In this document: positions 11,534 through 56,982 of the stretch, one piece after another
Numbering within the stretch: the first letter of the stretch is position 1
How the letters are laid out: each line of letters opens with the position of its first letter
Notes under the pieces: generated by a model
Seen by the model: only the letters and a program-made list of their open reading frames with translations
Databases searched by the model: none
What the model was told of the DNA's origin: nothing
Assembly: GCA_963681505.1 (NCBI GenBank)
Contig: OY811989.1
Location: forward strand, 4,244,736 to 4,308,735
Reading direction: 5' to 3'
Origin: Eunapius fragilis
Taxonomy: Eukaryota; Porifera; Demospongiae; Spongillida; Spongillidae
DNA length: 64,000 nt
Program-made: the position numbers and the translations under genes

Positions 11534-11795
11534 CAAGTAAATAAAAACATTCTCTACGAGAAAGTTGGTGGAATATAGGATTTTGGTGGTGTAAAAAGCA
11601 AGGAAACAAGGTCTTATCAGAAGGGAAAATGTCATAGTCCTATATTTAGCACATTTCTAGGGCATGTGTTATTTGTGTGCTAAATATAGGACTATGACAT
11701 TTTCCCTTCTGATAAGACCTTGTTTCCTTGCTTTTTACACCACCAAAATCCTATATCCCACCAACTTTCTCGTAGAGAATGTTTTTATTTACTTG
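11534..11795. repeat. 262-bp foldback within element A
   Basis: Arms of 120 bp are nearly identical to each other around a 22-nt loop. The outer part (CAAGTAAATAAAAACATTC... GAGAA.GTTGGTGG.ATATAGGA) is shared with the foldback at 16152-16436, while the inner part is different sequence. Confidence 0.85.
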
Positions 11796-12194
11796 TTTTC
11801 TTTATTTATTTTTTTCATATATTATATAAAAGCGAGTCCTCCAGCCGATTCTGAAGCTATTGGTGAAATTTTCATCGCTTAGAAATGTTCCTGTCCTGAG
11901 TTATGCGTTGCCAAGAAGGAGAAGAAGAAGAAGAATAAGAAGAATGAGAAGACGACCCGCCCCTTGTTCCGAGACTGGGTACGAGGACGGGCAGTACACT
12001 CTTGTTCTCAACAACCACGCGGTTCAGCGACATGAAACAAAAACGAAACTACTCATTTTTGACTTCTAGATCGATTGCTAAAACAAGCTACACGATCCGA
12101 TCGTCGGGAGTGTTGTTACAGCCGGGTCGCGTTTTTTTAATGACTTCATAGTCGGGGTCAAATCCTATATGGAAGTTTCTAACGAAACTTCCGA
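11534..12194 (-). mobile_element. Helitron-like element, copy A (non-autonomous)
   Basis: Absent from the matching place in unit 1 (about 3520). Read on the minus strand it starts TCGGAAG with a perfect 9-bp stem/4-nt loop hairpin (12171-12192; stem GGAAGTTTC/GAAACTTCC), followed by ATATAGGATTT. It ends ...TTTTTATTTACTTG just after a small hairpin (TCTC-GTA-GAGA). The plus-strand left end is a near-perfect foldback, arms 11534-11653 and 11676-11795. The body has a purine-rich GAAGAAGAAGAAGAATAAG run shared with copies B and C. It has no coding capacity. 5'-TC and a 3' hairpin are Helitron hallmarks; the terminal CTTG and the long foldback are not canonical, and the flanking base at the 5' end is C rather than A. 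Confidence 0.5.
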
Positions 12195-12455
12195 GACAGT
12201 ACCTTTTATAGTGAAAGTTGATTGTGAACATGATTTCTCTCCATCATAATGACCTATCATTGTTACGTGAGACCCCCCCCCCCTGGGGCGAAGTCGGGAT
12301 TAGGACTTGACGCGTGAATATCATTACTAGCCACACATTTGACCATAGTCGGGCACGCGTTTGACCTTTTATCAGACCACGACATTTGACCGGTTATTAA
12401 CCCCCAACCAGGGGCAGTTTGCTTTAATAAAGGTCAAATCCCTCCCAATGCCCCG

Positions 12456-12899
12456 CAGCCCCGGATCCAGCATAGGCTCGGGGGGGGGCGGCCGCCCCCC
12501 CCATTCATACGAAATGCCGCCCTCTGGGACCAATTTCCGCCCCCCCCCCCCCCCCCCCCCCCCCCGCTCCATTCCCCACGCACTATCACGCACGCGCGCA
12601 CAAACCAAGATATAAATCATCGAACGGCAAGCAGCACCCCCCCCCCCCCCCCCGCTTTTGAATCGGGCCTAAAACGGACAGCACCCCCCCCCCCCCCCCC
12701 CCGCGTTTGGATCGGGCCTAAAACGGACAGCACCCCCCCCCCCCCCCCCCCCGCTTTTGGATCGGGCCTAAAACGGACAGCACCCCCCCCCCCCCCCCGC
12801 TTTTTGTATCCGCCCCTGGCTTCGCATGCATTCATTGTCAATGTGCCGCCCCTCCAGTAAAACCGCCCCCCCCTTAGCCAAATCCTGGATCCGGGGCTG
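12456..12899. mobile_element. hAT-type non-autonomous element, nested, 8-bp duplication
   Basis: 15-bp perfect terminal inverted repeats, CAGCCCCGGATCCAG and CTGGATCCGGGGCTG, flanked on both sides by the 8-bp duplication ATGCCCCG (12448-12455 and 12900-12907). CAG-starting ends with GGATCCAG and an 8-bp duplication are typical of the hAT superfamily. The interior has no transposase; it contains poly-C runs and four tandem copies of a GATCGGGCCTAAAACGGACAG-plus-poly-C unit (12630-12800). Confidence 0.85.
12630..12800. repeat. poly-C-linked tandem repeat
   Basis: Four units of about 56-60 bp, each a CTTTTGGATCGGGCCTAAAA core plus ACGGACAGCA and 15-20 C residues. The length of the C runs is likely variable and error-prone in assembly. 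Confidence 0.8.
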
Positions 12900-13175
12900 A
12901 TGCCCCGGGGGGGAACAATGATAGGGCGCATATAATGCATTCGTACGGTGGGAGTGGGGCCGAGGAATGTAATATACGGTCCCATTTATTTATCCATTTT
13001 TCCCCCGCACGTGTACGTGGAACGTCACTACAATGTCAAGGTACTAGTACGTAGTTATAGTTTTATATATCTCTGGTTTGAAAGCATTTTTGATTAGTGA
13101 TGCCCTTACTGCATTATTATCTTAATACTGTCATCTAATCCAACTAATCCATGGGAGCTCTACACGCGAGTTATG

Positions 13176-16151: not shown

Positions 16152-16436
16152 ACAAGTGATAAAAACATTCTCTATGCGAGAAGGTTGGTGGTATATAGGA
16201 ATCAAAGGCGGTGGTGGTGTAAAAAGCAAGGGAACAAGGATTGTGATTGAAAAGGAAAAATTAAATGGACCTATATTAGCAGCATGTCGTCATGTTTAAC
16301 TGTGTGTGCTAATATAGGTCTATTTAATTTTTCCTTTTCAATCACAATCCTTGTTCCCTTGCTTTTTACACCACCACCGCCTTTGATTCCTATATACCAC
16401 CAACCTTCTCGCATAGAGAATGTTTTTATCACTTGT
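16152..16436. repeat. 285-bp foldback at the end of element B
   Basis: Arms 16152-16281 and 16307-16436 are nearly perfect complements around a 25-nt loop. The outermost 50 bp resemble those of 11534-11795; the inner sequence differs between the two foldbacks, yet within each the arms match. Confidence 0.85.
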
Positions 16437-16610
16437 TTCCTACATTTTTTGGTAGATTTAGTATTGTATTTAGTTCTTGAAAAGTAACCATGTAGCAAGA
16501 ATGTCAAATGACAGTTTTATTTTAGAATCTCGTGGCCATGCAATTTTTTGAGGTGTGGGTGTACCATTAAAACACACAGTATTACTATTTAAACAATAAG
16601 TACAAGTATT

Positions 16611-16762
16611 TCATTTATAACCCAGGAGCATGTCATCTTGTATAGGATATACTGCTGTATATTCTGGACCAGGATATACTTCTGTATATCCAGGATATAT
16701 AGCAGGTAGAGCAGGTGGAGCTAATCCTGCAGCTGGACATGGAACCACTCCTGGACCTGGAC
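16611..16762 (-). CDS. Pro/Gly/Tyr-rich candidate exon in element B
   Basis: Read on the minus strand, a good acceptor (CACCTGTTTCAG) opens a 49-codon frame ending in TGA (16611-16613). The peptide is rich in Pro, Gly, Ala and Tyr: PGPGVVPCPAAGL, then YPGYTEVYPGPEYTAVYP, ending DDMLLGYK. I recognise no family. The repeated YPG/VYP spacing and the absence of stops suggest real coding descent, probably the 3' exon of a captured gene or a gene of the element. Transcription is unproven. Confidence 0.3.
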
Positions 16763-17073
16763 CTGAAACAGGTGATTTAAACAACCATTAGTTAAAACAA
16801 ATCCTCCACTGGCAAGTGAAGCCATATAATACATCAGACAAAGATTACATGTACCCACTGATCTCACGCTATTATCAGATAAACCACAATACGTTGTCAT
16901 CAGCAACTTTGATACTATTAGATATAAATTATGCACCACAATACACATTAACATTATTACGAAATTGTTGTCAGCGAACAGCGTGCACATATTTCAAACA
17001 ACAGCACGGAGAGAGATGCAATATCTTCCGCTGTAACTGTTGCATAAAATATTTTAGCGATACACTTTTCATG

Positions 17074-17238
17074 CTATAATTTATGTCCAGATCCAACATT
17101 CATGGTGTAACGCACCATCGGGGTGGTCGCTTTGATGGTCCTTTCAGTAGCACGCTTGACACCTTGTCGTGTCTTGTATTGCACTCGTTTGGCATATCTG
17201 TAGGTGTACGAGTGGCTAGTTGTTGCCGGGTTTTTTTT
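17074..17238 (-). CDS. basic candidate exon in element B
   Basis: On the minus strand, acceptor-like GCCCTTACAG is followed by 54 codons and a stop (TAG 17074-17076): KKNPATTSHSYTYRYAKRV, then QYKTRQGVKRATERTIK, ending YTMNVGSGHKL. Lys and Arg are abundant (about a quarter). The frame stays open a further 16 codons upstream of the acceptor. No family recognised. With the neighbouring Pro-rich exon on the same strand it could belong to one captured transcript. Confidence 0.3.
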   Translation of the reverse strand, partial: KKNPATTSHSYTYRYAKRVQYKTRQGVKRATERTIKATTPMVRYTMNVGSGHKL

Positions 17239-18204
17239 CTGTAAGGGCGGTGGTGTGGGGGAGACACATTCTAATTGGAGCCTCTTGCTTCACATTATCT
17301 GCTGTAGACTGTATACCGTAGTATCTGATCGCGTATGTAGTTCCACCGACAGAATTCGAAAGTTATGCTATATAAAAGCTATAGTATAGAAATCAATTCG
17401 GTCAAAACAATTATATGCGATAGTGTCGGGTACTTACGTGTATGGTGGTTTTGGCTTTCATTTCAAGCTGCGTAACGAATGATAAGAGTTGAGAGTAACG
17501 CACAGGCGTCATGCAGAAAATGATACCTTGAATATTCGTCAGGAGCCTTCCTATAACGTTATCGCTGATCCATTCCGTTTCTCAACCATTTGGCATTATG
17601 GTTGGACATTTATACATGGAGCCGTAGGGACCCGAAAAGGCTCTTGGATTCAGTGCGTATACCTCTTCCACAGCGTGCGGGAATATTAAGAATTTGAATC
17701 ACGCCCACGACACGTGGCTATTATTGCATTTAAAAATAGCTAGCTGATGTAATTGGGTATTTTTAACCGAATACCAAATGAGGTACTATTCGCTTTAGTT
17801 AATTGCCCGAACAGTTAGGCGTCTAACAGACCCCCGAAGATAACCTGCGGACGCATCCTGAAGCGATTGGTACACTTGGCATGCTATACAAACGTTCCTG
17901 TCGTGCGTTATACTCTCCGGAAGGAAGAAGAAGAAGAAGAAGAATAAGAAGAAGCCGACGGAGGAGAAATTTTAGGTGGGACTGGGTACGGACGATGGGG
18001 ACGAGTATTTTTGTTCTCTAAAAGTACACCGTCTTGTGACACAAATACAACGCAGAACTGTTGTCCTTTTTTATATCGCTCGAATGCCACTAAGAGCGAA
18101 GTGACCCGATTCTTAAATGTCCCGCTAGACGTGAGTGACATTTTTTTAATGACATTCATGATACTGTTGGATTCCTATATGGAACCTACTCGCGTAGGTT
18201 CCGA

Positions 18205-20574
18205 TATGAAAATGCATGCAGAGCTGCAATGGGCCTCTAGTAGAGTAAATGCCCTCTGTTATGAAAGCATACATATTAATATGTGCTGCTTTTTGACACT
18301 TAAAAGTTTAAAGAGGTATAAACACAAGTGATTTACAATACAAAATAGATAATTATCTCAACTTAACTTAATGGCCGATGACCAAAGGATTAGCAATCAA
18401 GATCTAATTTTGGTTGAGTTGAGCTACATTTCATAATTAGCAGATTGTGCAGACGATAGCTACAGTTCAGCTTTGCTCACCATTTTGGGCTATCAAATTT
18501 ATATCTTGCTAAACCATTTCTATATTATACATATCTTCTCCTAAGAGAAAATGCTGATTAGCTCGTCAACCTTTAAGGTATTGCAGTGTGCTTATAAATA
18601 GAGGCAGTGATTTACCACCAAGTTTGCACAAGGGGGTTGGTTCAGTAATATAGGTGGTGGTCAAAAATAAAAGCCTTCTCTCATTAAATGGTATGCTATG
18701 CAGTTTAATAAAACAGCACCAGATAGATTAATTAACGAAACAGCATTAGAAATGGACAATCAGATACATGTACATGTAAATCACACCTTTATGATGTTAC
18801 ATTACCCTGATGTATACAAGGATGAATTGCCATCTGGTTTAAAGTATTGCAGAACAATATTACCATTGCCAATCAAGTTAACAAAAATAGTACTAGGATC
18901 CAGGTTAAATTAGTGAAGCTTACATTGCCTCCGATGGGCAGAACAATGTTTCCGATCAGCTTGTGTCGTTATGTACTGTTATGGCTCTGATTTTATGATT
19001 GTTCTAAACGCATCAAGTTTATACGATGTCGTATTTTACAGTCTCAGTAATGCTAGTGATGGGAAACGGTCATGTACGATTATGGGGATTCCTTGTTGTG
19101 TACTAGGCACAATCATGTCCGGTCCTAGTGGATAATCGTTCAACGTGTGCGTACGCAGTTTGACTAGTATGACCTTAGTGCACAGTGGTTTAAAACCATA
19201 GGTGACCAGGGGATTTTGAAAGTTTTGTAAACAAATATACCCAAATTGTTTGTCAAAATAATCAAGTTTAACTATCTATCTAACTATAATGAACTGAAAA
19301 GTTTTAATTAAATATTTCAATAATAATAAACATATACTACCATAGCATATTATTATTATTTATTTATTATTTTAAAGCATGCTATAGGAATATTGCAGGA
19401 CAGTAACAACACTGATTAAAAACAAATTCATCTCTCTACCAATTAATAATAATAATCATTAGAGAATAATTACTTAAAATAACCCAGTGTAATCAAGATA
19501 TGTGTAAATAATATAATTTAATAGTACACTTGAATTGCTTATAAACGTACCAAAGGGGTTTCTTCAACCTATTTTACTCCCCAAGTATTAACATGCACAC
19601 GTACATCCAACGAAAGACAAAAAGTGTGCACACACGGCGTGCTCTTGTTTCTAATAAAGACATGAAAGACGGCGCATCATAAAGAACACAGATACTGTCT
19701 ACAGACAGAACAGCTTTGTTTGCATCGTAGCATAGACGCTGAAATAGTCCCCAGTCACTTAATTATTATGCAATCTTTAGAGATTGTTTGAGAGTATCTA
19801 GCTCGTTAGTAAAGAGGTCACAAACCTTGATGCGACTAAAAGCGGCTAACTGTAATGTGATAGCAACAGATGGGCAAAGCAACATTTATAAATTGCATTT
19901 CCCAGTATACCCTCGCCTTGCCTCGCCGTGAGAAGTTAGGTGGTACAGTTCTATTTTTTGATATTTTTCTGAGTTCAGAATAGAAAATTACCCACACTGA
20001 ATACCCTAGCTATGATAAATATAGTGTACATCAGTAGAGAAGAAAATAGGCTTCCCGAGTACATATTAAATATTACAAACCAACCTGTTATGAAAAATGA
20101 AATGTATATATTTAGTTTACAAAATGTCATCATAAATGTCTAAATACAATTCAATTTGAGTATTCAGACATAATCATTAGTATGCCAGGGTAATTGGACT
20201 ATTGTGAATGTATTTATGTCTAGAAACATTGAAGTAAGACCCTGACCCAATGTCATTGTCATTGTCCTAAACCACTGTGTAGTGTACACCTACAGTTGTA
20301 ATAATACTTGAATGTGCACAACGTGCAGAGAGAAAATGCTTGAAAAAAGTAAGCCTGTCACTCTATGTATTGTAGAAAGGAATTGAAAAAGCCCTTGTTC
20401 GAAATTGGCCTAACCAAATGCTCAAGAAACGAGCACACAGACAGATAGACAGAGTTTATTATTTCTTACTAGTTAGTATGTAAGTAAAGATGTCTGTTGT
20501 ACTCCCAGTGCGCATATGCAAACCTCACTGCTTTAATCAATGTATTTCCCCCTCTGTATTGCACTAGTGAAGAA
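18205..20574. other. spacer upstream of ZNF2
   Basis: Collinear with 4636-6958 at high identity, AT-rich, with no gene. It contains about 110 bp near 19785-19900 that unit 1 lacks. The same splice-acceptor-like CTCTGTATTGCACTAG precedes ZNF2. Confidence 0.55.
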
Positions 20575-21600
20575 ATGGCTAATAGAGAGGAAGCACATCA
20601 GAGTCAACAGGTTGGAGAGGTATTGTCCTTAGGGACAAGACCACATCAGTGTGAACAATGTGGAAAGACATTTTCAGATCGGGCAATCTTGAAAAGACAC
20701 ACGGTCACTCATACAGGGGAAAAGCCGCATCAGTGTGAACAATGTTTAAAAACATTTTCACGACATTCAACCCTAAAAAAACACATGCTCACTCATACAG
20801 GGGAGAAGCCACATCAGTGTGAACAGTGTGGAAAGACATTTTCAGATCGGGCAATCTTGAAAAGACACATGGTCACTCATACAGGGGAGAAGCCACATCA
20901 GTGTGAACAATGTGGAAAGACATTTTCACGACAGTCGCACCTGAAAAGACACATGCTTACACATACAGGGAATAAGCCACATGAGTGTGAACAATGTGGA
21001 AAGGCATTTTCACTGCAGTCAAGCCTGAAAAGACACATGCTCACACATACAGGGAATAAGCCACATGAGTGTGAACAATGTGGAAAGGCATTTTCAGTGC
21101 AGTCAAGCCTGAAAACACACATGCTGACTCATATAGGGGAGAAGCCACATCAGTGTGTACAGTGTGGAAAGACATTTTCAGTACAGTCAAGCCTGAAAGC
21201 ACACTTGCTCACTCATACAGGGGAGAAGCCACATCAGTGTAAACAATGTGGAAAGACATTTTCACTGCAGTCAAACCTGAAAACACACATGCTCACTCAT
21301 ACAGGGGAGAAGCCACATCAATGTGAACAATGTGGAAAGACATTTTCACAACAGTCACACCTGAAAGGACACATGCTCACTCATTCAGGGGTGAAACCAT
21401 TTATCTGTTTTTGTAAGAAATCATTTGCATCAATAACTAGATTAAAGTCCCACTGCCGAATACATTGTGATGAGAGATTGAAATGTCAGAACAGAGGATG
21501 TTCCAGATCATTTTTATACATGAAAGGGTTGAAGTATCATCTCAAGAGCTGTAAACATGGCAGTGAGAGTAACAGGTCTTCCAGTGTCTATGGTGACTGA
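20575..21600 (+). CDS. C2H2 zinc-finger protein ZNF2 (9 canonical + 2 atypical fingers)
   Basis: 341 residues: the same 22-residue N-terminus as ZNF1 (MANREEAHQSQQ), nine canonical fingers (residues 23-274), then the conserved CxC finger and the Cx4C...Hx4C motif with tail ending SVYGD. Contact residues (-1,2,3,6): DAIR, RSTK, DAIR, RSHR, LSSR, VSST, VSSA, LSNT, QSHG. Fingers 1 and 3 are near-identical, so a recent internal duplication is likely. Fingers 5 and 6 use the linker TGNKPHE instead of TGEKPHQ. Relative to ZNF1 the C-terminal half is closely alike and the N-terminal fingers are new. Start chosen as for ZNF1. Probable sequence-specific DNA binder; targets unknown. Confidence 0.88.
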   Translation: MANREEAHQSQQVGEVLSLGTRPHQCEQCGKTFSDRAILKRHTVTHTGEKPHQCEQCLKTFSRHSTLKKHMLTHTGEKPHQCEQCGKTFSDRAILKRHMVTHTGEKPHQCEQCGKTFSRQSHLKRHMLTHTGNKPHECEQCGKAFSLQSSLKRHMLTHTGNKPHECEQCGKAFSVQSSLKTHMLTHIGEKPHQCVQCGKTFSVQSSLKAHLLTHTGEKPHQCKQCGKTFSLQSNLKTHMLTHTGEKPHQCEQCGKTFSQQSHLKGHMLTHSGVKPFICFCKKSFASITRLKSHCRIHCDERLKCQNRGCSRSFLYMKGLKYHLKSCKHGSESNRSSSVYGD

Positions 21601-24139: not shown

Positions 24140-24194
<55 letters not shown>

Positions 24195-24238
24195 TGTGCG
24201 CGTGTGTGCATGCATGTGTGTGTATATGTGTGCACAAG

Positions 24239-32338: not shown

Positions 32339-32746
32339 TCAACGCTGATGTCGAGCACAATAAAAATTTCCATTAGCATTTGGCAAGCTAGGTGTGCAGC
32401 ACTGTGCTCCTTTGCGAGCCCCTGTTTTCATTATTGCTTCGCAGGGTTTCTTTGTGCGCTCTAATGCAGCCTTTTCCTCTAGAGCTGCCTTTCTTTTTCT
32501 GCGTCGCTCCTCTTTCTCAGCTATCTCTCTCCTCTTCATGTCCTCAGCAGCCTTAAATTCATCAATCCATTGTGCTGAAGTCATGCACTGAGCTGAGCCT
32601 TTCAAACGCTTAAAAGTAGGGGTAGTGTTGTCCTGTGGATCCAAGCTTTCTCCTTCTGAATCATCAGTTGTGCTTCCAGAACTTTGTGGAGAGGTTGGTT
32701 CAGCATGTTGCACCTGCTCAGGACGTACTGCACAATGCAGCCACAT
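32339..32746 (-). CDS. C-terminal part of the pogo-type transposase (Cys/His tail)
   Basis: 135-codon frame overlapping the end of the main transposase frame by 29 bp in another phase. It holds a Ser/Thr/Asp-rich segment (SSGSTTDDSEGESLD), a strongly charged helix (residues about 68-95, KRREIAEKEERRRKRKAALE) and a Cys/His tail: KKPCEAIMKTGARKGAQCC, then YCARHQR. The Cys-x(n)-GxRKGxxC-x(n)-YCxxH arrangement looks like a small zinc knuckle. It is probably the real C-terminus of the transposase, reached by a short splice, or separated by one frame change. Confidence 0.55.
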   Translation of the reverse strand: MWLHCAVRPEQVQHAEPTSPQSSGSTTDDSEGESLDPQDNTTPTFKRLKGSAQCMTSAQWIDEFKAAEDMKRREIAEKEERRRKRKAALEEKAALERTKKPCEAIMKTGARKGAQCCTPSLPNANGNFYCARHQR

Positions 32747-34133
32747 ACATGGAATGGTACTGAATGGACAATTTCAGACGTAACTGCAGATCTTCTTCTG
32801 TTGTCATTGCAACAGCCTCAATATCTACACGCCTCTTCACCTCTTGTGCCACACCATCCTCTATAAAGCTTACAATGGTGACTTGATCAGAAAGTGCTGC
32901 CCCCGACACACCACATGAAGCCATGATTGCATCATGGGGTCCAACTGTATCTTCAGGAAGAGCATCTACCCCACGTAGAGGAGACAGGCCTGTCTTTTGG
33001 AATGCCGACATGATGTTCTCTCTAGTAAATGACCGATGATAGGCATCATTGATTATCATTGGAACATCGTGTGGTAGAATAAGATGTGATACTGAATGTT
33101 TGGTCATTGCAGCAGAAGAAAGCATCTTTAGTGGACCAAACACTCCTACATCCAGAGGTTGTACCAGATGGCTGGTGTGGGAAGGCATGAGCACAATGTC
33201 AAGCTTGTTGGCAATAGCTAATTGTGCAGCATATAAAGAAATGTGTGACTCGTGGCCATCAACAATGAGCAGTTTGTATCCCCGTGTCTCAGGAGCTGGT
33301 AAAATATCAATGAGATGTTTGAGGATCTCATGGTAGATGCTCCGTTCAATCCAGCCACTGGCACTGTAGGCAAGCCCACAGTTTGGATCAAAGTTATGAG
33401 TTGCTCTGGCCATTTCATGCGACACTGATTTTCCCTGGAAGATAAATGTAGGGGGCAGAGCTGTACCATCGGATACAATGGCAGCAACCATCGTAATATG
33501 AACTCCACGCTCCCCATAGATGCCTGTGAGTTTGTGAACACGCTTGGTTCCACAAACTACAGCCACACGCTTCTGGGTTGGGTCAAGCACAATCTGAGTT
33601 TCATCAAGATTGAAGAAGTCTCTAGATGGGTCAAGGCCATGTTCTGCCACTCGCTCGTGAATGAGTTGAAAAAAAGCACGTAGGCGGGAGTCTCTGCCAG
33701 AGGTTGCACGGCTGCGTGATAAGTTGCGTGGTATACGCAAGGAGATCGGAGTGCCTGACTCTGCAGCTCTCTTTCGAAATCCGTCCCACCAGTGTTTAGT
33801 TAGAAGCCCATCTTCACCCTTAAACGTACAGCCTTCCTCCTCTGCTAGTGCCTTTGCAGCTTCGAACACCTCTTCTTTCGTCATCCCCACACCCCTTAAG
33901 TTCATGAATACGATGGCTTTAATCAGGCCTGCCTCGGCCGCTCGTGACAATATCGGTTTTGCCCCTACCCGCCTGTCATCTATAGCTACTTCACCAGTCG
34001 TCAAGCGATACAGAGTCGATGTGCTCATTCCGCTTGCGGACGCAATCTCACAGAATGAGCCTCTTTTGGTCTTGTAGGCTTCAATTGCCATCCTAGCGAC
34101 CTCAGGAGAATAGCCTTTACGCTTATCGGCCAT
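32718..34133 (-). CDS. pogo/Tigger-type transposase
   Basis: 471 residues from MADKRKGYSPEVA. An N-terminal helix-turn-helix (residues about 8-50: SPEVARMAIEAYKTKRGSF; ASGMSTSTLYRL) is followed by a linker and a DDE_1 catalytic core: FFNLDETQIV (first Asp near 176), LLIVDGHESHIS (second Asp near 297), then QPLDVGVFGPLK with the third Asp 36 residues on. The longer frame upstream to 34337 covers the terminal repeat region and is not family-like, so I take the inner Met. The frame ends at 32718, while a second frame (32746-32339) continues with the C-terminal region, so one frame change or an intron separates them. Catalyses cut-and-paste transposition; it looks recent because all three acidic residues are kept. 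Confidence 0.85.
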   Translation of the reverse strand: MADKRKGYSPEVARMAIEAYKTKRGSFCEIASASGMSTSTLYRLTTGEVAIDDRRVGAKPILSRAAEAGLIKAIVFMNLRGVGMTKEEVFEAAKALAEEEGCTFKGEDGLLTKHWWDGFRKRAAESGTPISLRIPRNLSRSRATSGRDSRLRAFFQLIHERVAEHGLDPSRDFFNLDETQIVLDPTQKRVAVVCGTKRVHKLTGIYGERGVHITMVAAIVSDGTALPPTFIFQGKSVSHEMARATHNFDPNCGLAYSASGWIERSIYHEILKHLIDILPAPETRGYKLLIVDGHESHISLYAAQLAIANKLDIVLMPSHTSHLVQPLDVGVFGPLKMLSSAAMTKHSVSHLILPHDVPMIINDAYHRSFTRENIMSAFQKTGLSPLRGVDALPEDTVGPHDAIMASCGVSGAALSDQVTIVSFIEDGVAQEVKRRVDIEAVAMTTEEDLQLRLKLSIQYHSMYVAALCSTS

Positions 34134-34734
34134 AAGTAGACTATAGGCTGTACCATGCAGCTGATAGACGATAGATATCATTTTTAAGCAGGCCCCCCCT
34201 GTCACAAGCAAACCCATTGCGGCTGAGTGTTTATATAGCAACCCTTTGATGTGGTTGTTCCTTATTCGGTACCTTTCCCATACATTGAAGTATGTTTGCC
34301 GAAATGTGAGTTTTCGGTACCAGGATTCGTACAACATTTGCTACGATTACTATGGTTGTAATCTACGTTAAATTCTCTATCCAACAGTGTTTAAATTATC
34401 TCTCAAGCATGCATAGTTTGTCTGCATCAGACAAGGAAAGTTGGGTGTTCCTTAATAGGTTCCTTTGCTCTAAAAGGGAGCAGAACCAATTTCCCATTTC
34501 ACAGAAATTATGTTTTATTTGATAGTATGTTTTTCATATCGATTGTAAGTGGTTAGGGGTATGCATCAGTATGCGGAGGGTAGGACCAGGGTAAAGAGGG
34601 GGTAGGACCAGGGTAAAGAGGGTGTAGGAGTTTATTATCTCTTAGTGTAGGCAAGGATGTCTGTTGTGCTACACATATGCAAACTTCACTGCTTTAATCA
34701 ATGTATTTCCCCTCTGTATTATACTAGTGAAGAA

Positions 34735-36423
34735 ATGGCCAATAGAGAGGAAGCACATCAGAGTGAACAAGTTGGAGAGGTATTGTCCTTAGGGACGAGA
34801 CCACATCAGTGTGAACAATGTGAAAAGAGATTTTCACGGCCATCACTCCTGAAAAGACACATGCTCACTCATACAGGGGAGAAGCCACATCAGTGTGAAC
34901 AATGTGGAAAGACATTTTCACGACAGTCAAGCCTGAAAAGACACATGCTCATTCATACAGGGGAGAAGCCACATCAGTGTGAACAATGTGGACAGGCATT
35001 TTCAGTACGGTCAAGCCTGAAAACACACATGCGCATTCATACAGGGGAGAAGCCACATCAGTGTGAGCAATGTGGAAAGACATTTTCACAACAGTCAACT
35101 ATGAAAACACACATGCTCACTCATACAAAGGAGAGGCCACATCAGTGTGAACAATGTAGAAAGACATTTCAACGAAAGTCACACCTGAAAAGACACATGC
35201 TCACTCATACAGGGGAGAAGCCACATCAGTGTGAACAATGTGGAAAGACATTTTCACAACAGTCATGCCTGAAAACACACATGCTCACTCATACAGGAGA
35301 GAGGCCACATCAGTGTGAACAATGTGAAATGACATTTTCACGACAGTCAACCTTGAAAACACACATGCTCACTCATACAGGGGAGAAGCCACATCGGTGT
35401 GAACAATGTGGAAAGACATTTTCACAACAGCCACACCTGAAAATACACTTGCTCGCTCATGCAGGGGTGAAGTCACATCAGTGTGAACAATGTGGAAAGA
35501 CATTTTCACAACAGCCACACCTGAAAACACACATGCTCACTCATACAGGGGAGAAGCCACATCAGTGTGAACAATGTGGGAAATCATTTTCATTGCAGTC
35601 GAACCTGAAAAGACACATGTTCACTCATACAGGGGAGAAGCCACATTGGTGTGAACAATGTGGAAAGACATTTTCACTACTGTCAAACCTGAAAGGACAC
35701 ATGCTCATTCATACAGGGGAGAAGCCACATCAGTGTGAACAATGTGGAAGGACATTTTCACTACTGTCGAACCTGAACCAACACATACTCACTCATACAG
35801 GGGAGAAGCCACATCAGTGTGAGCAATGTGGAAAGACATTTTCACTGCAGTCAAACCTGAAAGGACACATGCTCACTCATACAGGGGAGAAGCCACATCA
35901 ATGTGTAAAATGTGGAAAGTCATTTTCACATCAATCAAGCCTTAAAAAACACATGCTCACTCATACAGGGGAGAGACCGCATCAGTGTGAACAATGTGGA
36001 AAGACATTTTCACACCAGTATCACCTGAAAAAACACATGCTCACTCATACAGGGGAGAAGCCACATCAGTGTGAACAATGTGGAAAGACATTTTCTGTAC
36101 AGTCAAGCCTGAAAGCACACATACTCACTCATACAGGGGAGAAGCGACATAAGTGTAAGCAATGCGGAAAGACATTTTCACAGCAGTCGCACCTGAAAGG
36201 ACACATGTTCACTCATTCAGGGGTGAAACCATTTATCTGTTTTTGTAAGAAATCATTTGCATCAATAACTGGATTAAAGGCCCACTGCCGAATACATTGT
36301 GATGAGAGATTGAAATGTCAGAATAGAGGCTGCTCCAGATCATTTTTATACATGAAAGGGTTGATGTATCACCTCAATTTCTGCAAACCTGACAGTGAGA
36401 GTAGCGGTGTCCATAGTGACTGA
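34735..36423 (+). CDS. C2H2 zinc-finger protein ZNF3 (17 canonical + 2 atypical fingers)
   Basis: 562 residues, the largest of the cluster: 22-residue N-terminus, 17 canonical fingers (residues 23-498), CxC finger, Cx4C...Hx4C motif, and the second tail subtype (NFCKPDSESSGVHSD). Contact residues (-1,2,3,6): RSLR, RSSR, VSST, QSTT, RSHR, QSCT, RSTT, QPHI, QPHT, LSNR, LSNG, LSNQ, LSNG, HSSK, HYHK, VSSA, QSHG. Fingers 8 and 9 are a recent pair. Linkers are TGEKPH or TGERPH with exceptions at fingers 4 (TKERPH), 8 (AGVKSH) and 16 (TGEKRH). No added domain. Upstream insertion of a pogo-type element ends 264 bp before the ATG and may separate the gene from its promoter or a 5' exon. Confidence 0.88.
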   Translation: MANREEAHQSEQVGEVLSLGTRPHQCEQCEKRFSRPSLLKRHMLTHTGEKPHQCEQCGKTFSRQSSLKRHMLIHTGEKPHQCEQCGQAFSVRSSLKTHMRIHTGEKPHQCEQCGKTFSQQSTMKTHMLTHTKERPHQCEQCRKTFQRKSHLKRHMLTHTGEKPHQCEQCGKTFSQQSCLKTHMLTHTGERPHQCEQCEMTFSRQSTLKTHMLTHTGEKPHRCEQCGKTFSQQPHLKIHLLAHAGVKSHQCEQCGKTFSQQPHLKTHMLTHTGEKPHQCEQCGKSFSLQSNLKRHMFTHTGEKPHWCEQCGKTFSLLSNLKGHMLIHTGEKPHQCEQCGRTFSLLSNLNQHILTHTGEKPHQCEQCGKTFSLQSNLKGHMLTHTGEKPHQCVKCGKSFSHQSSLKKHMLTHTGERPHQCEQCGKTFSHQYHLKKHMLTHTGEKPHQCEQCGKTFSVQSSLKAHILTHTGEKRHKCKQCGKTFSQQSHLKGHMFTHSGVKPFICFCKKSFASITGLKAHCRIHCDERLKCQNRGCSRSFLYMKGLMYHLNFCKPDSESSGVHSD

Positions 36424-40124: not shown

Positions 40125-41627
40125 TCTCCTTCAACTCGAAAAAGGTAGCAGCTGACACTGTTAGAACACGTGGCTAAACTGCCATTGCCAAATGCTGAGC
40201 TTGCAGTGATATATGTATGGGGCTTGCGTCCGGCGTGATGGTCACCTCACCTGTAAGAGGGTTAAGAAGATATTTACTTACCAACACTCAAAGGAATTAA
40301 TAACACTGGAAAACGTCATGTTAAACATATTTACACCATACGGTTGTTTCATTCCATTGAAACGTGTGCAAAAAAGCCCTATGCCCCCTAACAATTTTTT
40401 TTCCATAGCAATGGGGCTAATTACAACCTTAGCGACATGTCCAGAGAACTAAGCCTTTTTGGCAAAAGCTGTTTGGTCTTTTTTAGTCTGGACTATTGAG
40501 TTTGTTTCTACTGAACTTCACGCACTGAACTACCAGAAAGATAGGCACTACCGCTCTACTGGAAGCATGCTATTAGGTCGATATTTTTGTCTCTGATTAT
40601 TGCTTATTATCGCTGTTTTGTCGCCATTTTATTATTCAAGTTCGCTGTACTCACCTACGTTTCTGCCTCTGATAGTCCATCACACCATGGCAAAATGTCT
40701 CAGTGTCCACCCAAGCCACTTTGGGCTTGGTGAGGGGCTAAAGGGGCCTTAGGAGGGTATGGGTGAGAGCTGTAAGCGTTGCAAGTTACACAATAAAAGA
40801 AATTATCATATACTACCAAAGTCATGGCCTTGGTTGTGGACCTGCTGGAAATTCAAGCGCCCATATCTTGAGCTTGCACAGTGATAAGATGAGAAATAAG
40901 TCAGTTATAAGAATATTTCTGGTGTTGAATGTGAGAATGGTGGTCTTGTGTAGCAGAAGTCTAGCCACATATAAGCCCCACCTCCCACTCCCAAAAAAGT
41001 GTAAGTGAGATTGTGGTTATCCAGCAATGCTTACTGTACAAAACAGGAGACAGAATTGTTATACTGGCATGTCCATAGTGGTCAGTATAGAAATACACAT
41101 GACTGTTATAAATGGATGCACTGGCATTTTGATGGATAGAAGTGTACATAGACAGAATGGTTATGCTGGCATGTCTGTGCTTGGAATAAATAGGGAGTGT
41201 TCTTCTACAGGCATGCCTAAGAGTGGTATGAAATAGTGTTTTCCACCATTTTTTATAATTACGTCTGTAAATCATACCCTGACCCAAATGTCATAGTCTG
41301 AAACCACTGTGCCCCTGTCACCTGAGCCATTAGCGCCTACATCTATACCACTAAAATGTTAGAACCTGCTTGGTAAGACCTGGACAATTGTAGAAATAAC
41401 AGTCGGCTCAATTTCCCATTTCACAGAAATTATGTTTTATTTGATAGTATGCGATTGTAAGTGGTTAGGGGTATGCATCAGTATGTGGAGGGTAGGGCCA
41501 GGGTAACGAGGGTGTAGGAGTTTATTATCTCTTAGTGTAGGCAAGGATGTCTGTTGTGCTACACATATGCAAACTTCACTGCTTTAATCAATGTATTTCC
41601 CCCTCTGTATATTATACTAGTGAAGAA

Positions 41628-42392
41628 ATGGCCAATAGAGAGGAAGCACATCAGAGTGAACAAGTTGGAGAGGTATTGTCCTTAGGGACGAGACCACATC
41701 AGTGTGAACAATGTGGAAAGACATTTTCACGACAGTCAAGCCTGAAAAGACACATGCTCATTCATACAGGGGAGAAGCCACATCAGTGTGAACAATGTGG
41801 ACAGGCATTTTCAGTACGGTCAAGCCTGAAAACACACATGCGCATTCATACAGGGGAGAAGCCACATCAGTGTGAACAATGTGGAAAGACATTTTCACGA
41901 AAGTCAGCTATGAAAACACACATGCTCACTCATACAGAGGAGAGGCCACATCAGTGTGAACAATGTAGAAAGACATTTTCACATCAGTCAACTATGAAAA
42001 CACACATGCTCACTCATACAAAGGAGAGGCCACATCAGTGTGAACAATGTAGAAAGACATTTCAACGAAAGTCACACCTGAAAAGACACATGCTCACTCA
42101 TACAGGGGAGAAGCCACATCAGTGTGAACAATGTGGACAGGCATTTTCAGTACGGTCAAACCTGAAAGCACACATGCTCACTCATTCAGGGGTGAAACCA
42201 TTTATCTGTTTTTGTAAGAAATCATTTGCATCAATAACTGGATTAAAGGCCCACTGCCGAATACATTGTGATGAGAGATTGAAATGTAAGAATAGAGGCT
42301 GCTCCAGATCATTTTTATACATGAAAGGGTTGATGTATCACCTCAATTTCTGCAAACCTGACAGTGAGAGTAGCGGTGTCCATAGTGACTGA
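41628..42392 (+). CDS. C2H2 zinc-finger protein ZNF4 (6 canonical + 2 atypical fingers)
   Basis: 254 residues, the shortest intact member: N-terminus identical to ZNF3, six canonical fingers (residues 23-190), CxC finger, Cx4C...Hx4C motif and tail NFCKPDSESSGVHSD. Contact residues: RSSR, VSST, RSAT, HSTT, RSHR, VSNA. Fingers 1-2 match ZNF3 fingers 2-3, and finger 5 matches ZNF3 finger 5, so this gene looks like a ZNF3 relative that lost about eleven fingers by unequal exchange. Linkers TEERPH and TKERPH replace TGEKPH after fingers 3 and 4. Confidence 0.87.
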   Translation: MANREEAHQSEQVGEVLSLGTRPHQCEQCGKTFSRQSSLKRHMLIHTGEKPHQCEQCGQAFSVRSSLKTHMRIHTGEKPHQCEQCGKTFSRKSAMKTHMLTHTEERPHQCEQCRKTFSHQSTMKTHMLTHTKERPHQCEQCRKTFQRKSHLKRHMLTHTGEKPHQCEQCGQAFSVRSNLKAHMLTHSGVKPFICFCKKSFASITGLKAHCRIHCDERLKCKNRGCSRSFLYMKGLMYHLNFCKPDSESSGVHSD

Positions 42393-46094: not shown

Positions 46095-48268
46095 TCTTCT
46101 TCAACTCGAAAAAGGTAGCAGCTGACACTGTTAGATCACGTGGCTCAACTGCCATTGCCAAATGCTGAGCTTGCAGTGATATATCTATGGGGCTTGCATC
46201 TGGCGTGGTGGTCACCTCACCTGTAAGAGGGTTAAGAAGATATTTACTTACCAACACTCAAAGGAATTAATAACACTGAATTACGTCATGTTAAACATAT
46301 TTACACCATATGGTTGTTTCATTCCATTGAAAAGTGGGCAAAAAGCCCTATGCCCCCTAACGAATTCTTTTCCATAGCAATGGGGCTAATTACGCCCTTA
46401 GCAACAACATGTCCAGAGAACTAAGCCTTTTTGGCAAAAGCTGTTTGGTCTTTTTTAGTCTGGACTATTGAGTTTGTTTCTACTGAACTTCACTCACTGA
46501 ACTACGTGAAAGATAGGCACTAACACTCTACTGGAAGCATGCTATTAGGTCGCTAGTACGGTGGGTTGTTTTGGAGTAGGGGAGATAAACCGTGCTCTAC
46601 TAAAGTTTCCGACCTTATAAGGTCCACTGCCGCGGTAGGTTTTCCAGTTAGTTTTTATTTAGAGCTCGTGGTGCCACGTTGTCTAACGGAATATTTTTGT
46701 CTTTGGATTATTGCTTATTATCGCTGTTTTGATGCCATTTTATTATTCAAGTTCGCTGTACTCACATATGTTTCTGCCTCTTACAGTCCATCACACCATC
46801 GCAAAAGGTATCAGTGTCCACCCAAGCCACTTTGGGCTTGGTGAGGGGCTAAAGGGGCCTTAGGAGGGTATGGGTGAGAGCTGTAAGCGTTACAAGTTAC
46901 ACAATAAATATACTACCAAAGTCATGGCCTTGGTTGTGGACCTGCCGGAAATTCAAGCGCCCATATCTTGAGCTTGCACAGTGATAAAATGAGAAGTAAC
47001 TCTTTTATAAGAATATTTCTGGTTTTGAATGTGAAAATGGTGGTCTTATGTAGCAGAAGTCTAGCCACATATAAGCCCCACCCCCCCACCCCCAAAAAAG
47101 TGTAAGTGAGATTGTGGTTATCCAGCAATGCCTACTGTACGAAACAGGAGACAGAATTGTTATACTGGCATGTCCATAGTGGTCAGTATAAAAATACACA
47201 TGACTGGTATAAATGGATGCTCTGGCATTTTGATGGATAGTAGTGTACATAGACAGAATGGTTATGCTGGTGTGTCTGTGCTTGGAATAAATAGGGAGTG
47301 TTCTTCTACAGGCATGCCTAAGAGTGTTATGAAAAGAGTGGTATGAATATAGCTAGAGAGATCATGCTACATGGCATGTCTGCAGTGATAGGAATAACAT
47401 AGCAGCTAAACCTGATGAGTGGTATAAATAGTGTTTATAAGGCATGCCTAAGAATGGGCAGAATGGTTTGTGTTTTTGTTTGAAGGGGACTTAAGTATAA
47501 GGGCGGAAAAAGAATTACAAAGCCCTGACTGAAAGGATTATTTAGCGCCAATTTGGAACCATAAGAAAAAACAGCCCAGTAGCAGATGCGTAGAGCGAAA
47601 ATTAAATAGATGGATAGTTGTAGCAATATTTAGTCCTTTTTTCAAATGCACATGCCATACTATAGCTGTAGAAATGTTATCATCAAACTTTTAATGAATT
47701 GTTTTCTAAGGGTAGCCATGTTGGTTGAACCATAAATATCATATTGTGTTCTAATTATATACTTAATGCCCACGCAAAACAGCCGTGACCAATCAATGGT
47801 TTGAACTTCCAATATTAGGTGAAATTTAGAGCATGAATTGTGATAGTGTAGAGTGTTTTCCACCATTTTTTATAATTACGTCTGTAAATCATACCCTGAC
47901 CCCAAATGTCATAGTCTGAAACCACTGTGCCCCTGTAACCTGAGCCATTAGCACCTACATCTATACCACTAAAATGTTAGAACCTGCTCGGTAAGACCTG
48001 GACAATTGTAGAAATATCAGTCGGCTCTGGAATAAAAAGGAGCAGAACCAATTTTCCCATTTCACAGAAATTATGTTTTATTTGATAGTATGTTTTTCAT
48101 ATCGATTGTAAGTGGTTAGGGGTATGCATCAGTATGTGGAGGGTAGGGGCCAGGGTGTAGGAGTTTATTATCTCTTAGTGTAGGCAAGGATGTCTGTTGT
48201 GCTACACATATGCAAACCTCACTGCTTTAATCACTGTATTTCCCCCTCTGTATTATACTAGTGAAGAA

Positions 48269-49369
48269 ATGGCCAATAGAGAGGAAGCACATCAGAGTGA
48301 ACAAGTTGGAGAGGTATTGTCCTTAGGGACGAGACCACATCAGTATGAACAATGTGAAAAGAGATTTTCACGACCATCACTCCTGAAAAGACACATGCTC
48401 ATTCATACAGGGGAGAAGCCACATCAGTGTGAACAATGTGGACAGGCATTTTCAGTACAGTCAAGCCTGAAAACACACATGCTCACTCATACAGAGGAGG
48501 GGCCGCATCAGTGTGAACAAATTAGAAAGACATTTTCACAACAGTCATGCCTGAAAACACACATGCTCACCCATACAGGAGAGAGGCCACATCAGTGTGA
48601 ACAATGTAGAAAGACATTTCAACAAAAGTCACACCTGAAAAGACACATGCTCACTCATATGGAGGAGAAGCCACATTGGTGTGAACAATGTGGAAAGACA
48701 TTTTCACAACAGTCATGCCTGAAAACACACATGCTCACTCATACAGGAGAGAGGCCACATCAGTGTGAACAATGTAGAAAGACATTTCAACGAAAGTCAC
48801 ACCTGAAAAGACACATGCTCACTCATACAGGGGAGAAGCCACATCAGTGTGAACAATGTGGAAAGACATTTTCACTACAGTCAAACCTGAACCAACACAT
48901 ACTTACTCATACAGGGGAGAAGTCACATCAGTGTGAACAATGTGGAAAGGCATTTTCACTGCAGTCAAACCTGAAAGTACACATGCTCACTCATACAGGG
49001 GAGAAGCCACATCAGTGTGAACAATGTGGAAAGACATTTTCTGTACAGTCAAGCCTGAAAGCACACATACTCACTCATACAGGGGAGAAGCCACATCAGT
49101 GTAAACAATGTGGAAAGACATTTTCACAACAGTCACACCTGAAAGGACACATGTTCACTCATTCAGGGGTGAAACCATTTATCTGTTTTTGTAAGAAATC
49201 ATTTGCATCAATAACTGGATTAAAGTCCCACTGCCGAATACATTGTGATGAGAGATTGAAATGTCAGAACAGTGGATGCTCCAGATCATTTTTATACATG
49301 AAAGGGTTGATGTATCACCTCAATTTCTGCAAACCTGACAGTGAGAGTAGCGGTGTCCATAGTGACTGA
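48269..49369 (+). CDS. C2H2 zinc-finger protein ZNF5 (10 finger units, two degenerate)
   Basis: 366 residues: 22-residue N-terminus, ten finger units (residues 23-302), CxC finger, Cx4C...Hx4C motif, tail NFCKPDSESSGVHSD. Finger 1 has Tyr for the first Cys (PHQYEQC) and finger 3 has Ile for the second Cys (CEQIRKTF), so neither should bind zinc normally. Contact residues: RSLR, VSST, QSCT, QSHR, QSCT, RSHR, LSNQ, LSNV, VSSA, QSHG. Fingers 3-4 and 5-6 form a duplicated two-finger block. Frame fully open, but loss of two zinc ligands suggests relaxed constraint at the N-terminal fingers. Confidence 0.85.
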   Translation: MANREEAHQSEQVGEVLSLGTRPHQYEQCEKRFSRPSLLKRHMLIHTGEKPHQCEQCGQAFSVQSSLKTHMLTHTEEGPHQCEQIRKTFSQQSCLKTHMLTHTGERPHQCEQCRKTFQQKSHLKRHMLTHMEEKPHWCEQCGKTFSQQSCLKTHMLTHTGERPHQCEQCRKTFQRKSHLKRHMLTHTGEKPHQCEQCGKTFSLQSNLNQHILTHTGEKSHQCEQCGKAFSLQSNLKVHMLTHTGEKPHQCEQCGKTFSVQSSLKAHILTHTGEKPHQCKQCGKTFSQQSHLKGHMFTHSGVKPFICFCKKSFASITGLKSHCRIHCDERLKCQNSGCSRSFLYMKGLMYHLNFCKPDSESSGVHSD

Positions 49370-52312: not shown

Positions 52313-52314
52313 TA

Positions 52315-54133: not shown

Positions 54134-54173
<40 letters not shown>

Positions 54174-54730: not shown

Positions 54731-54734
54731 ACAG

Positions 54735-55045: not shown

Positions 55046-55055
55046 CAGGTGTTGT

Positions 55056-55097
55056 CAGAACTACCACTACCACCTTTGGGTGGTAGTGGTAGTTCTG
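55056..55097. repeat. perfect 19-bp-stem hairpin
   Basis: CAGAACTACCACTACCACC, loop TTTG, then its exact complement. It sits between the gag fossil and the repeat-protein remnant. Could be a transposon end or an insertion junction; its sharpness suggests recent origin. Confidence 0.75.
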
Positions 55098-55205
55098 TGA
55101 CCCCTGTGGCACGCGTCCTCTCGGAAGCACATTTAGCCAATCGGACAGCGGGGTCATTCCAATACCGACTCCTTTTAGATGCTTTAATGGCAGCTGAGAT
55201 GCTGC

Positions 55206-55716
55206 CTGTTAACCGCGCGGTTTCCCTCCAGGTCCTCTTCATATCGCTGCCTTTCAGCAGCGGTTCTCCTCGAGGTCCTCTTCATATCGCCGCCTTTTAG
55301 CAGCACGGTTCTCCTTGCAGCTATCGCGTACAGAGGCCTTCTTCTTTTCGGGATCGGCCTTGTAGCTGTCTCGTGTAGAGGCCTTCATCTTTTCGGGATT
55401 GGCCTTGTAGCAGTCGCGTACAGAGGCCTTCTTCTTTTCGGGATCGGCCTTGTAGCGGTCGCGTGCAGAGGCCTTCTTCTTTTCGGGATCGGCCTTGTAT
55501 CTGTCGCGTGCAGAGGCCTTCTTGTCGGGATCGGCCTTGTAGCTGTCGCATACAGAGGCCTTCTTATTTTCAGGATCGGCCTTGTAGCTGTCGCGTACAG
55601 AGGCCTTTTTTCGGGATTGGCTTGTAGAGCGCTCGGGCTTTAGCTTTGTTCTCGTCTTGCTTTTGGAGGTATTCCGCTCGTTGCTTAGATCTCTTCTTTT
55701 GATTACGCGAAGGCAT
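55206..55716 (-). pseudogene. repeat-rich basic protein remnant (KKASVRDSYKADPE repeats)
   Basis: On the minus strand, MPSRNQKKRSKQRAEYLQ opens a frame that changes phase after about 37 codons. The next frame carries seven imperfect 14-15-residue repeats (KKASVRDSYKADPE type), then RAAKRRRYEEDLEENR. Similar short charged repeats occur at the N-termini of some invertebrate transposon-encoded proteins; that link is from memory of the family style, not proof. The frame change and the truncated end make it a remnant. Its ATG lies at the edge of the hAT-type insertion at 55719. Confidence 0.5.
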
Positions 55717-55718
55717 TT

Positions 55719-56485
55719 CAGGGGCGGATACAGGAATTCTGGAAAGGGGGGGTCCGACATGAATAATCAAAAGGGGAGGGGTGGGAGGGGGATGTGCCCC
55801 CTCCCGCGCTTCGCGCGGGAGCTTTTGAATATGCGGATAAACCATGGCCGTAGACAACTTTCAGAGTTTGAGGGCGGGGGGGGGGGGGGGGGCTATAACG
55901 ACTTGGGTGGGGCGGGAGGGGGCGCGCCCCCCCTCCTGCCCCCAGAAAGAAGGTTTGGGGTAGCGCTGTAAGCTCCCCATTGGGGTCTTTGCCGCTTTAA
56001 CTTTTTCCTTATTTGTTGTTAGCAAAAACTTTACAATGCAGAATTATTTTCTCTCGAGGAAAATTTGGGGGAAGGGCTCAAGCCCCCCACCCCCCCTACG
56101 TCCTTGTAAACACAGCGTGAGAGTGGCTGTAATTGCGTGAGTCTCCCGCAAAATGCGTGAGAGTTGGCAGGTCTGTGAAAATCACTAGGGAAATAATATT
56201 GATACTGACCAGATGATTCTGATGGTTTCCCGCTCGCTTCGCATGGGTACGCACGTGCTAGTCTCTCGTGATATGACGTAATTTAATGCGCACAAGCAGC
56301 TAATAATTTCATACCCCCTAATTGGGGGTCCCCCCCTTGGACCCGCCACTGGTACCGTTGAAGTACTTGAAGGTCAACGGTAGACTACCTTGGTTGCATA
56401 GATTGCCGTATGCATTACGCCATTGTTCATATAGGAAAGGGGGGGTCCGGACCCCACGGACCCCCCCCCCCTAAATCCGCCCCTG
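55719..56485. mobile_element. hAT-like non-autonomous element, 767 bp, 5-bp duplication
   Basis: Ends CAGGGGCGGATACAGG and CCTAAATCCGCCCCTG pair at 14 of 16 positions, and CATTT flanks both sides (55714-55718, 56486-56490). CAGGGGCGGAT ends are hAT-like. A 5-bp instead of 8-bp duplication is unusual but is recorded for some hAT groups. The interior is G/C-run-rich with a CTCCCGCGC/GCGCGGGAG hairpin (55801-55821) and no coding frame. Confidence 0.65.
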
Positions 56486-56649
56486 CATTTTTAGAAAAAC
56501 AACTTCACTAGCCAAAGTAACAACTAAACTGCACACCATAGAGTATTTATACTGCCTAAAATTATTAATAAAAATCTATTTATATCATTATTAAGTAGAA
56601 CTTGATATATGTGTGTCTGTATGACATGTAAGGATAACGTGCCGGTAAA

Positions 56650-56982
56650 TTTTGAAGCGATTGGTACTATTGCCGTTCTTCACAACCGTTCGTAGCTCGA
56701 ATTATACCTTCCTAAGAAGAAGAATGAGAAGTTAACGACGACAATGGAGAATTATTTTAGGACTGGGCACGAGAAACAGGAAATTGTTTCTCTATACCAC
56801 ACCGTTTTATGACACGGAACCAACGTAGAACTGTAGATCGTTGTGCTCTCGTTCCATCGCGATAAAGAGATAAGCGATCCGTTTCTCCGTTGTCCCTCCA
56901 GGCGCTACTGATGTTTTATTAATGACATACATTCATCAACCCTCAATCAATCCTATATTGAACCTGCTGCCGCAGGTTCAGA
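56650..56982 (-). mobile_element. Helitron-like element, copy C (5' part only)
   Basis: Shares with copies A and B the block GAAGCGATTGGTAC, the AAGAAGAAGAATGAGAAG run, AGGACTGGGCACGAG and the terminal hairpin (56959-56980; stem TGAACCTGC/GCAGGTTCA, loop TGCC). On the minus strand it starts A|TCTGAACC and continues ATATAGGATTG. No foldback 3' end was found next to it, so it is truncated or interrupted, possibly by the hAT-like insertion upstream. Confidence 0.5.

Follow-up and report, generated by a model that had tools for sequence, protein, structure and literature searches.

Based on a computational analysis of a 64,000-nucleotide stretch of the Eunapius fragilis genome (assembly GCA_963681505.1, contig OY811989.1, forward-strand positions 4,244,736 to 4,308,735; hereafter the window) and on comparisons to the whole 219-Mb, 24-contig genome, we propose that three hairpins in the window are the 5' termini of a single Helitron lineage with at least five families and about 2900 exact-motif ends, and that the hairpin acts on the transferred strand, a reading that we consider likely as a whole. 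The ends share one anatomy, insertion takes place between A and T, the same hairpin end is linked to intact Rep-helicase frames, and stem differences between families are compensated. Below, C and L numbers denote contigs and fetched loci, respectively, the window being part of C19.

Hairpin ends in the window and in the genome

A sequence-only reading of the window had claimed three hairpins flanked by CCTATAT and GA on the plus strand, with the 5'-TC end of the element on the minus strand. Read directly, the window contains CCTATAT boxes at 12164-12170, 18174-18180 and 56952-56958, each continued by a perfect 9-bp stem with a 4-nt loop (Table 1) and then by GA (12193-12194, 18203-18204 and 56981-56982), exactly as claimed, and all three ends read TC-hairpin-ATATAGG on the minus strand. 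The start given for the feature, 11534, falls precisely on the 3' terminus of the first element. The stems, GGAAGTTTC, GGAACCTAC and TGAACCTGC, represent families 1, 2 and 3, respectively. The pattern CCTATATNGAAN{10,30}TTC matches the window three times, compared to a mean of 0.04 in 100 shuffles, none of which reached three, and the DNA folding z-scores of the six window strands are -4.6 to -6.9. The boundaries of the family 1 element are common to all eight family-1 loci fetched, with differing flanks; the window copy has C before TC, where A is usual, and T after CTTG. The family 2 element shares its 5' end with many copies, and its 3' palindrome is homologous to that of the autonomous copy described below. 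For the family 3 element, a 3' end was not found within the 64-kb window.

In the genome, TCNGAANNTNCNNNNGNANNTTCNATATAGG has 1877 matches, and its reversed control none. A stem-blind pattern, WTCCTATATN22GAT, in which WTCCTATAT and GAT, 22 free bases apart, are the only fixed parts, has 2905 (reversed control 51); row-level figures refer to the first 100 of these matches, all on contig C1. Nine of nine Watson-Crick pairs are present in 88 rows, eight in 10, seven in one and two in one, the last probably an unrelated match. Five families account for 32, 28, 14, 14 and 11 of the rows (one other), two of them being additional to those of the window (stems GAGAGTTAC and AGGAACTAC). In these two, stem position 3 is not A, a feature of 812 ends (control 34). 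Thirteen rows depart from their family stem, nine by one change, two by three changes, one by a compensated double change within family 5 (AGGAACTGC/GCAGTTCCT, C1:1468313) and one as a probably unrelated match. Copies with unpaired stems, named beforehand as evidence that would count against a used hairpin, appear in this sample only as sporadic mutations. Among the 79 unique 5' ends in the fetched loci, 75 have A before TC, the window family 1 copy being one of the four that do not, and 77 have all stem pairs intact. The hairpin end points outward from the element: beyond it, to the right in window orientation, the flanks vary among copies. No sixth family, with C or T at the third stem position, was recognised; the 67 matches (control 26) look, by eye, like mutated copies, pieces of the 3' palindrome or random matches.

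Some loci show rearranged ends. Directly outside the 5' end, L022 carries a second copy of the hairpin with some of the ATATAGG box, and L023 one of most of the hairpin, as if by tandem end duplication. In L040 (1888-3068), part of the same element is repeated in inverted orientation (1888-2741) immediately outside a family 3 5' end and is followed by a family-5-like 3' palindrome at 2781-3068.

Six representatives, one for each of families 1-5 and one for a subfamily of family 3, align without gaps, and all 54 of 54 stem cells are paired, none by G-T; six of the nine stem pairs changed on both sides, and one-sided variation occurs in none. The covariation score is 0.800; shuffles give 0.263 (standard deviation 0.071), and sliding the partners gives no more than 0.156. 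Because the families are related, the shuffles overstate significance, and the slid control keeps the relatedness but favours a structure derived from the same sequences. The compensating stem changes reported earlier from three copies thus extend to five families, every between-family difference being compensated. The conclusion drawn from them, that the hairpin itself is used, stands only in part, since copying of one arm from the other, which probably occurs in the 3' palindrome, could also yield mirrored changes at the 5' hairpin. Covariation here demonstrates folding of the arms or exchange between them, but by itself is no proof that folding is selected; the loop, the closing pair, the stem length and the strand are the better evidence for that.

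On the element strand, the 5' loops read GTTA, GCTA, GCGA, GGCA, GTCA or GATA, i.e. G..A closed by C-G in all five families, and the opposite strand reads TNNC. GNNA is found on the element strand in 95 of the 100 sampled rows, where no inverted TNNC loop occurs, and in 78 of the 79 unique ends. Mean between-family identity is 1.0 for the two outer loop bases and 0.30 for the two inner ones. Folding energy of the element strand is 0.4 kcal/mol lower in five of five families, a small and energy-model dependent difference. One family 4 end (C1:7813721-7813754), among 100 rows listed by the search for a base other than A at position 3, carries a loop inverted relative to other family 4 ends. Loop inversion hence does arise, possibly here as a trace of template switching or cruciform resolution; a family of inverted loops is absent among the rows listed.

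GNA and GNNA loops with G-C closing pairs have been described as forming DNA mini-hairpins of extraordinary stability (PMC4686876), and a stable d(cGNNAg) DNA tetraloop is the subject of the title of Nakano et al. 2002, cited in PMC8373063. The 3' hairpin of Helraiser kept about 90% of activity with a foreign stem, and behaved as a deletion when its loop, together with the pair at the loop base, was altered (PMC4778049). Because the GNNA loop is strand-specific, the single-stranded transferred strand would be the form that matters, which suggests use of the folded strand better than covariation does. The GNNA loop closed by C-G on the element strand only, in all five families and matching d(cGNNAg), looks new. 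Neither this rule nor the giant 3' palindrome was found described earlier in the open-licence papers searched, the loop rule possibly being visible in the figures of PMC3627910, which print other Helitron2 ends.

Autonomous copies, insertion site and 3' palindrome

An autonomous relative with a Rep/helicase gene, which the sequence-only reading had suggested looking for, was found, and it carries the same hairpin end. L069 and L070 (contig C1, family 2) are 99.85% identical over 9.87 kb, both starting at A|TC-hairpin and stopping at the 3' palindrome. Both loci contain a 1977-aa open frame, with the Rep domain starting 3497 bp from the hairpin. In Pfam, the L069 protein (P0001) matches DUF6570, Helitron_like_N (2.5e-26) and PIF1 (7.3e-20), with OTU below threshold; it is an HUH Rep fused to a PIF1-type helicase, as in the Helitron superfamily. 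The translated frame contains HYH and YVTGY, which we take to be the catalytic motifs. None of the eight Pfam matches of P0001 at E 0.001 is a separate endonuclease domain, the sole nuclease family listed, REP_ORF2-G2P, being the Rep part and below its cut-off, and one scan of viral contigs yielded no relatives of the Rep-helicase protein. The genome has 91 Rep matches, and of the 19 loci examined among them, 7 have a hairpin upstream on the same strand: L069 and L070, L074 (family 3), where the sequence was read through to Rep, and, by position only, L077, L078 and L086 (family 3) as well as L093 (family 4). The claimed Helitron-like family is thereby borne out by the TC-hairpin end, the stem compensation and the Rep-helicase relatives.

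The L069/L071 insertion, with the element reading TC...CTTG, lies between A and T (CTATTA^TTGCAT) without duplication. It parts CACGTGGCTATTA from TTGCATTT, and both are continuous in a related copy in the window (Table 1). The base after CTTG is T in 8/8 family-1 3' ends. Insertion at A^T without target-site duplication, as in the Helitron superfamily, is thus given by one exact case and flank statistics. A 3'-anchored retroelement, considered in view of one constant and one variable end, was dropped on the A^T insertion and the Rep-helicase linkage.

The autonomous element terminates in a 285-bp palindrome, ...CACTTG (L071/L072), and across the families compared the 3' end (...CTTG) is a palindrome of 264-292 bp. 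CTTG is present in all seven 3' ends compared, from families 1, 2, 3 and 5, of which L029, L011 and L040 were put into families by similarity. A 3'-end word has 4925 genome matches (control 0), and 68 of the first 100 fall into 34 close -/+ pairs, each a palindrome with both of its ends. A palindrome lies within 12 kb on the 3' side of 26/56 hairpins in the same stretch and on the wrong side of 7/56; the exact word does not pick up family 2, and a neighbouring element may own some of the 26. All 3' palindromes compared contain inverted ATATAGG boxes, the tails of which resemble, by eye and without a statistic, the same-family 5' box (GATTTGA / GATTTTG in family 1, GAATCCA / GAATCAA in family 2, GATTGATTG / GATTGACCA in family 3 and GAATTGACC / GAATTGGAG in family 5). 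Also by eye, a mini-hairpin, TTCTC-G..A-GAGAA, is located 15-16 nt from the 3' end (16 nt in the family 1 palindrome), with the loop GTA in family 1, GCATA or GTGTA in family 2 and GTTA both in family 3, where the stem has four pairs, and in family 5.

Within a copy, the arms of the seven 3' palindromes are 97.5-100% identical. Changes between copies, tallied for pairs that are Watson-Crick in the first copy and with gaps set aside, are for the most part mirrored. All 4 changed pairs between the family 2 window copy and the autonomous copy are mirrored, as are 16 of 17 between the former and L011 (family 3), with 1 one-sided and 10 lost to gaps. Family 1 compared to the others gives 6-12 mirrored and 1-8 one-sided changes, plus 1-2 two-sided ones that do not restore pairing. 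The comparison of family 3 and family 5 copies, with 16 mirrored and 9 one-sided, counts against a mostly mirrored pattern, as does that of two family 3 copies, which has neither kind. As arms of 120-130 bp are hardly selected pair by pair, one arm has probably been copied from the other, judging from these alignments. This 3'-terminal palindrome, with arms that change together even among close copies, looks new. The centres read in 7/8 family 1 3' palindromes all have one orientation, i.e. no loop inversion was seen there.

Placement among Helitrons and further window features

A 5'-terminal hairpin is the defining feature of Helitron2 (Bao and Jurka 2013), with compensatory changes reported in related elements, e.g. 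Helitron-1_CRe and Helitron-1N1/1N2_CQu (PMC3627910), and two Fusarium groups with TC and a hairpin have been described (PMC5148889). The view that a hairpin at the 5' end is unexpected therefore does not hold, and the main surprise of the sequence-only reading was already known in 2013. Further likeness to Helitron2 lies in hairpins at both ends and inverted repeats common to both ends. The sponge lineage differs in its insertion at A^T, its 5'-TC and its 3'-CTTG, the Helitron2 target being TTTT / T or C (PMC5148889), and in its 264-292-bp 3' palindrome. The asymmetric terminal inverted repeats of Helitron2 (ATIRs) are set back from the ends by 0-2 bp and 20-30 bp, and the 5' repeat belongs to the hairpin (PMC3627910), whereas in the sponge ATATAGG and a family-specific tail start at position 25, behind the hairpin, and recur 39-40 nt from the 3' end (distances counted by eye). 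The sponge repeat is a shifted version of the ATIR feature, at a spacing other than that of Helitron2. ATIRs drawn from the hairpin stem itself are not claimed, as only matches of about 5 nt (7 in one case) were seen by eye.

FoHeli1 and FoHeli2 of Fusarium oxysporum likewise have 5' TC (or T[c/a]) directly followed by a hairpin, and in our own comparison the two printed ends have a C-GAA-G loop, a GNA relative of GNNA. They differ in shorter stems, a 3' ATTTT and another target, and their available description contains no giant 3' palindrome (PMC5148889). proto-Helentron-Pi of Phytophthora infestans shares a non-canonical Rep-helicase, the lack of an endonuclease domain and A/T insertion without duplication, but has 5'-TT, 3'-CTAG and a typical-Helitron structure, with no 5' hairpin mentioned in the available text (PMC4067079). 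The Helentron features of a C-terminal endonuclease and a TT target are not those of the sponge lineage, which has no separate endonuclease domain among its Pfam matches and inserts at A^T. Helitron1, including Helraiser, has 5'-TC, an A^T target and a 3' subterminal hairpin in common with the sponge elements, but as described ends in 3'-CTRR and has no 5' hairpin (PMC4778049), whereas the sponge ends have a 9-bp 5' hairpin and CTTG. The Rep region (441-aa query) scores 30.5 bits to Helraiser, compared to 795 bits for the L096 Rep frame (728-aa query), the query lengths being unequal; this low score would speak against membership of the Helraiser group. L096 (C9:2930200-2934300) is a canonical Helitron of the Helraiser group in the same genome, with long Rep and helicase frames. 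We file the lineage, placed by its ends and target, as a variant of hairpin-ended Helitrons and not as a proven Helitron2 member; in the way its end features are combined, it looks like a new variant.

Table 1. Features annotated in the window (positions from the first letter of the window; a dot denotes no strand).
Feature	Position	Strand	Details
Family 1 non-autonomous Helitron	11534..12194	-	661 bp; 5'-TC at 12194, 3'-CTTG at 11534
Family 1 5' end	12164..12194	-	TC, hairpin 12171-12192, GTTA loop on element strand, ATATAGG box
Family 1 3'-terminal palindrome	11533..11796	.	264 bp; 11533 is the flanking target base; inverted ATATAGG boxes and mini-hairpin TTCTC-GTA-GAGAA
Family 2 non-autonomous Helitron	16153..18204	-	2052 bp; 5'-TC at 18204, 3'-CTTG at 16153; flanks A, T
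Family 2 5' end	18174..18204	-	TC, hairpin 18181-18202, GCGA loop on element strand, ATATAGG box
Family 2 3'-terminal palindrome	16152..16436	.	285 bp; 16152 is the flanking target base
Uninterrupted paralogue of the L069/L071 target	17703..17744	+	
Family 3 Helitron, 5' unit	56584..56982	-	
Family 3 5' end	56952..56982	-	TC, hairpin 56959-56980, GGCA loop on element strand, ATATAGG box
C2H2 zinc-finger frame	6857-7816	+	
C2H2 zinc-finger frame	20488-21600	+	
C2H2 zinc-finger frame	34651-36423	+	
C2H2 zinc-finger frame	41541-42392	+	
C2H2 zinc-finger frame	48179-49369	+	

A tandem array related to the family 3 5' unit occupies 55072-55704, and an AAG/AAT run (CTT on the element strand) at 17925-17954 has counterparts at the same place in the 5' unit of all five families. 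The five C2H2 zinc-finger open frames are related, with similar N- and C-terminal parts (Pfam was run on one). A 540-aa open frame with a DDE_1 domain at 32718-34340 (-) is presumably a transposase of the pogo/Tigger-like subfamily, and two ABC transporter open frames (ABC_membrane, ABC_tran) at 60361-63898 (+) are probably exons of one gene.

Proposed mechanism and alternatives

We propose that the lineage operates as follows. The Rep-PIF1 protein would introduce the nick at A|TC and would itself carry the 5' end of the transferred strand, which starts with TC, the 9-bp hairpin capped by the C(GNNA)G tetraloop and then the ATATAGG box. The hairpin would fold on the single-stranded transferred strand and be recognised by its shape and loop, irrespective of stem sequence. 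ATATAGG, repeated inverted in the 3' palindrome, may provide the sequence-specific contact at both ends, and the giant palindrome with its mini-hairpin would act as the termination signal at the 3' end. Each round of folding in transposition or replication may allow one arm to correct the other, leading to mirrored changes.

Several points weigh against this mechanism or limit its support. It is built on sequence, in which arm copying can produce covariation, and with only five stem families of shared ancestry the number of independent events is small. Twelve of the 13 rows off their family stem are incompletely paired, as expected of dead copies, and give no positive support, and the family 1 copy of the window has C and not A before TC. 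No hairpin is present in the 4.1 kb read at L073, where a family 3 hairpin lies 9.3 kb upstream of Rep on the same strand, and no hairpin 5' end in the 1.7 to ~5.1 kb read at three loci of the C9 2020-aa Rep type. Eight of the 12 Rep loci without a hairpin were read over 0.2-0.9 kb only, at a guessed distance.

Alternatively, the arms may be homogenised without selection, by template switching or by mismatch repair in a folded intermediate, such that covariation records folding but not function. The mirrored changes in the 3' palindrome fit this, in particular the 4/4 between the window and autonomous family 2 copies and the 16 against 1 one-sided in the comparison to L011, as does the single inverted loop at C1:7813721 among 100 listed rows, in agreement with the reported homogenisation of short inverted-repeat arms and inversion of spacers by template switching (PMC8604942). 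However, homogenisation leaves unexplained why every one of the five families has G and A at the outer loop positions of the element strand but varying inner bases, and why the stem has a fixed length and lies two bases from the cut; moreover, no TNNC loop occurs in the 100 stem-blind rows and no inverted-loop family among the rows listed. We hold homogenisation without selection unlikely. Perfect inversion and a fixed spacer at the element end would also fit a duplex binding site for a dimeric protein, without any folded hairpin. Such a site needs a conserved sequence, whereas mean between-family identity in the stem (0.58) does not exceed that of positions 60-350 (0.62), with ATATAGG at 1.0, and yet the symmetry is complete; a GNNA on one strand is no symmetric duplex feature either, making this explanation highly improbable. 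Least probable of all is selection of the hairpin in RNA, as transcript start or terminator of the element, for which a stem-loop fixed at the element start with a conserved ~390-bp unit behind it may be cited, but against which stand the lack of G-T pairs in 54 cells though RNA tolerates G-U (a small sample), the position two bases from the DNA end and a loop of the DNA-stable class.

We tentatively extend the transferred-strand hairpin, at somewhat less than even confidence, to hairpin-ended Helitrons in general. The transferred strand of these elements would begin with a DNA-specific, super-stable d(cGN(N)Ag) cap, the stem being free and the loop and strand fixed; mirrored mutations in both terminal palindromes would record single-stranded folding and arm correction of the transposition intermediate, and the long 3' palindrome would represent a new terminator kept by correction.

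In the literature seen, the account of how hairpin-ended Helitrons define their ends is drawn from alignments of a few elements. The E. fragilis genome provides thousands of ends in five families, together with open frames of the enzymes that probably move them, and whether the 5' hairpin is read as a shape with a loop on one strand is now directly testable. These elements also hold a warning, in that arm copying in folding elements can mimic covariation, and a conserved loop with strand bias is the better evidence of function.

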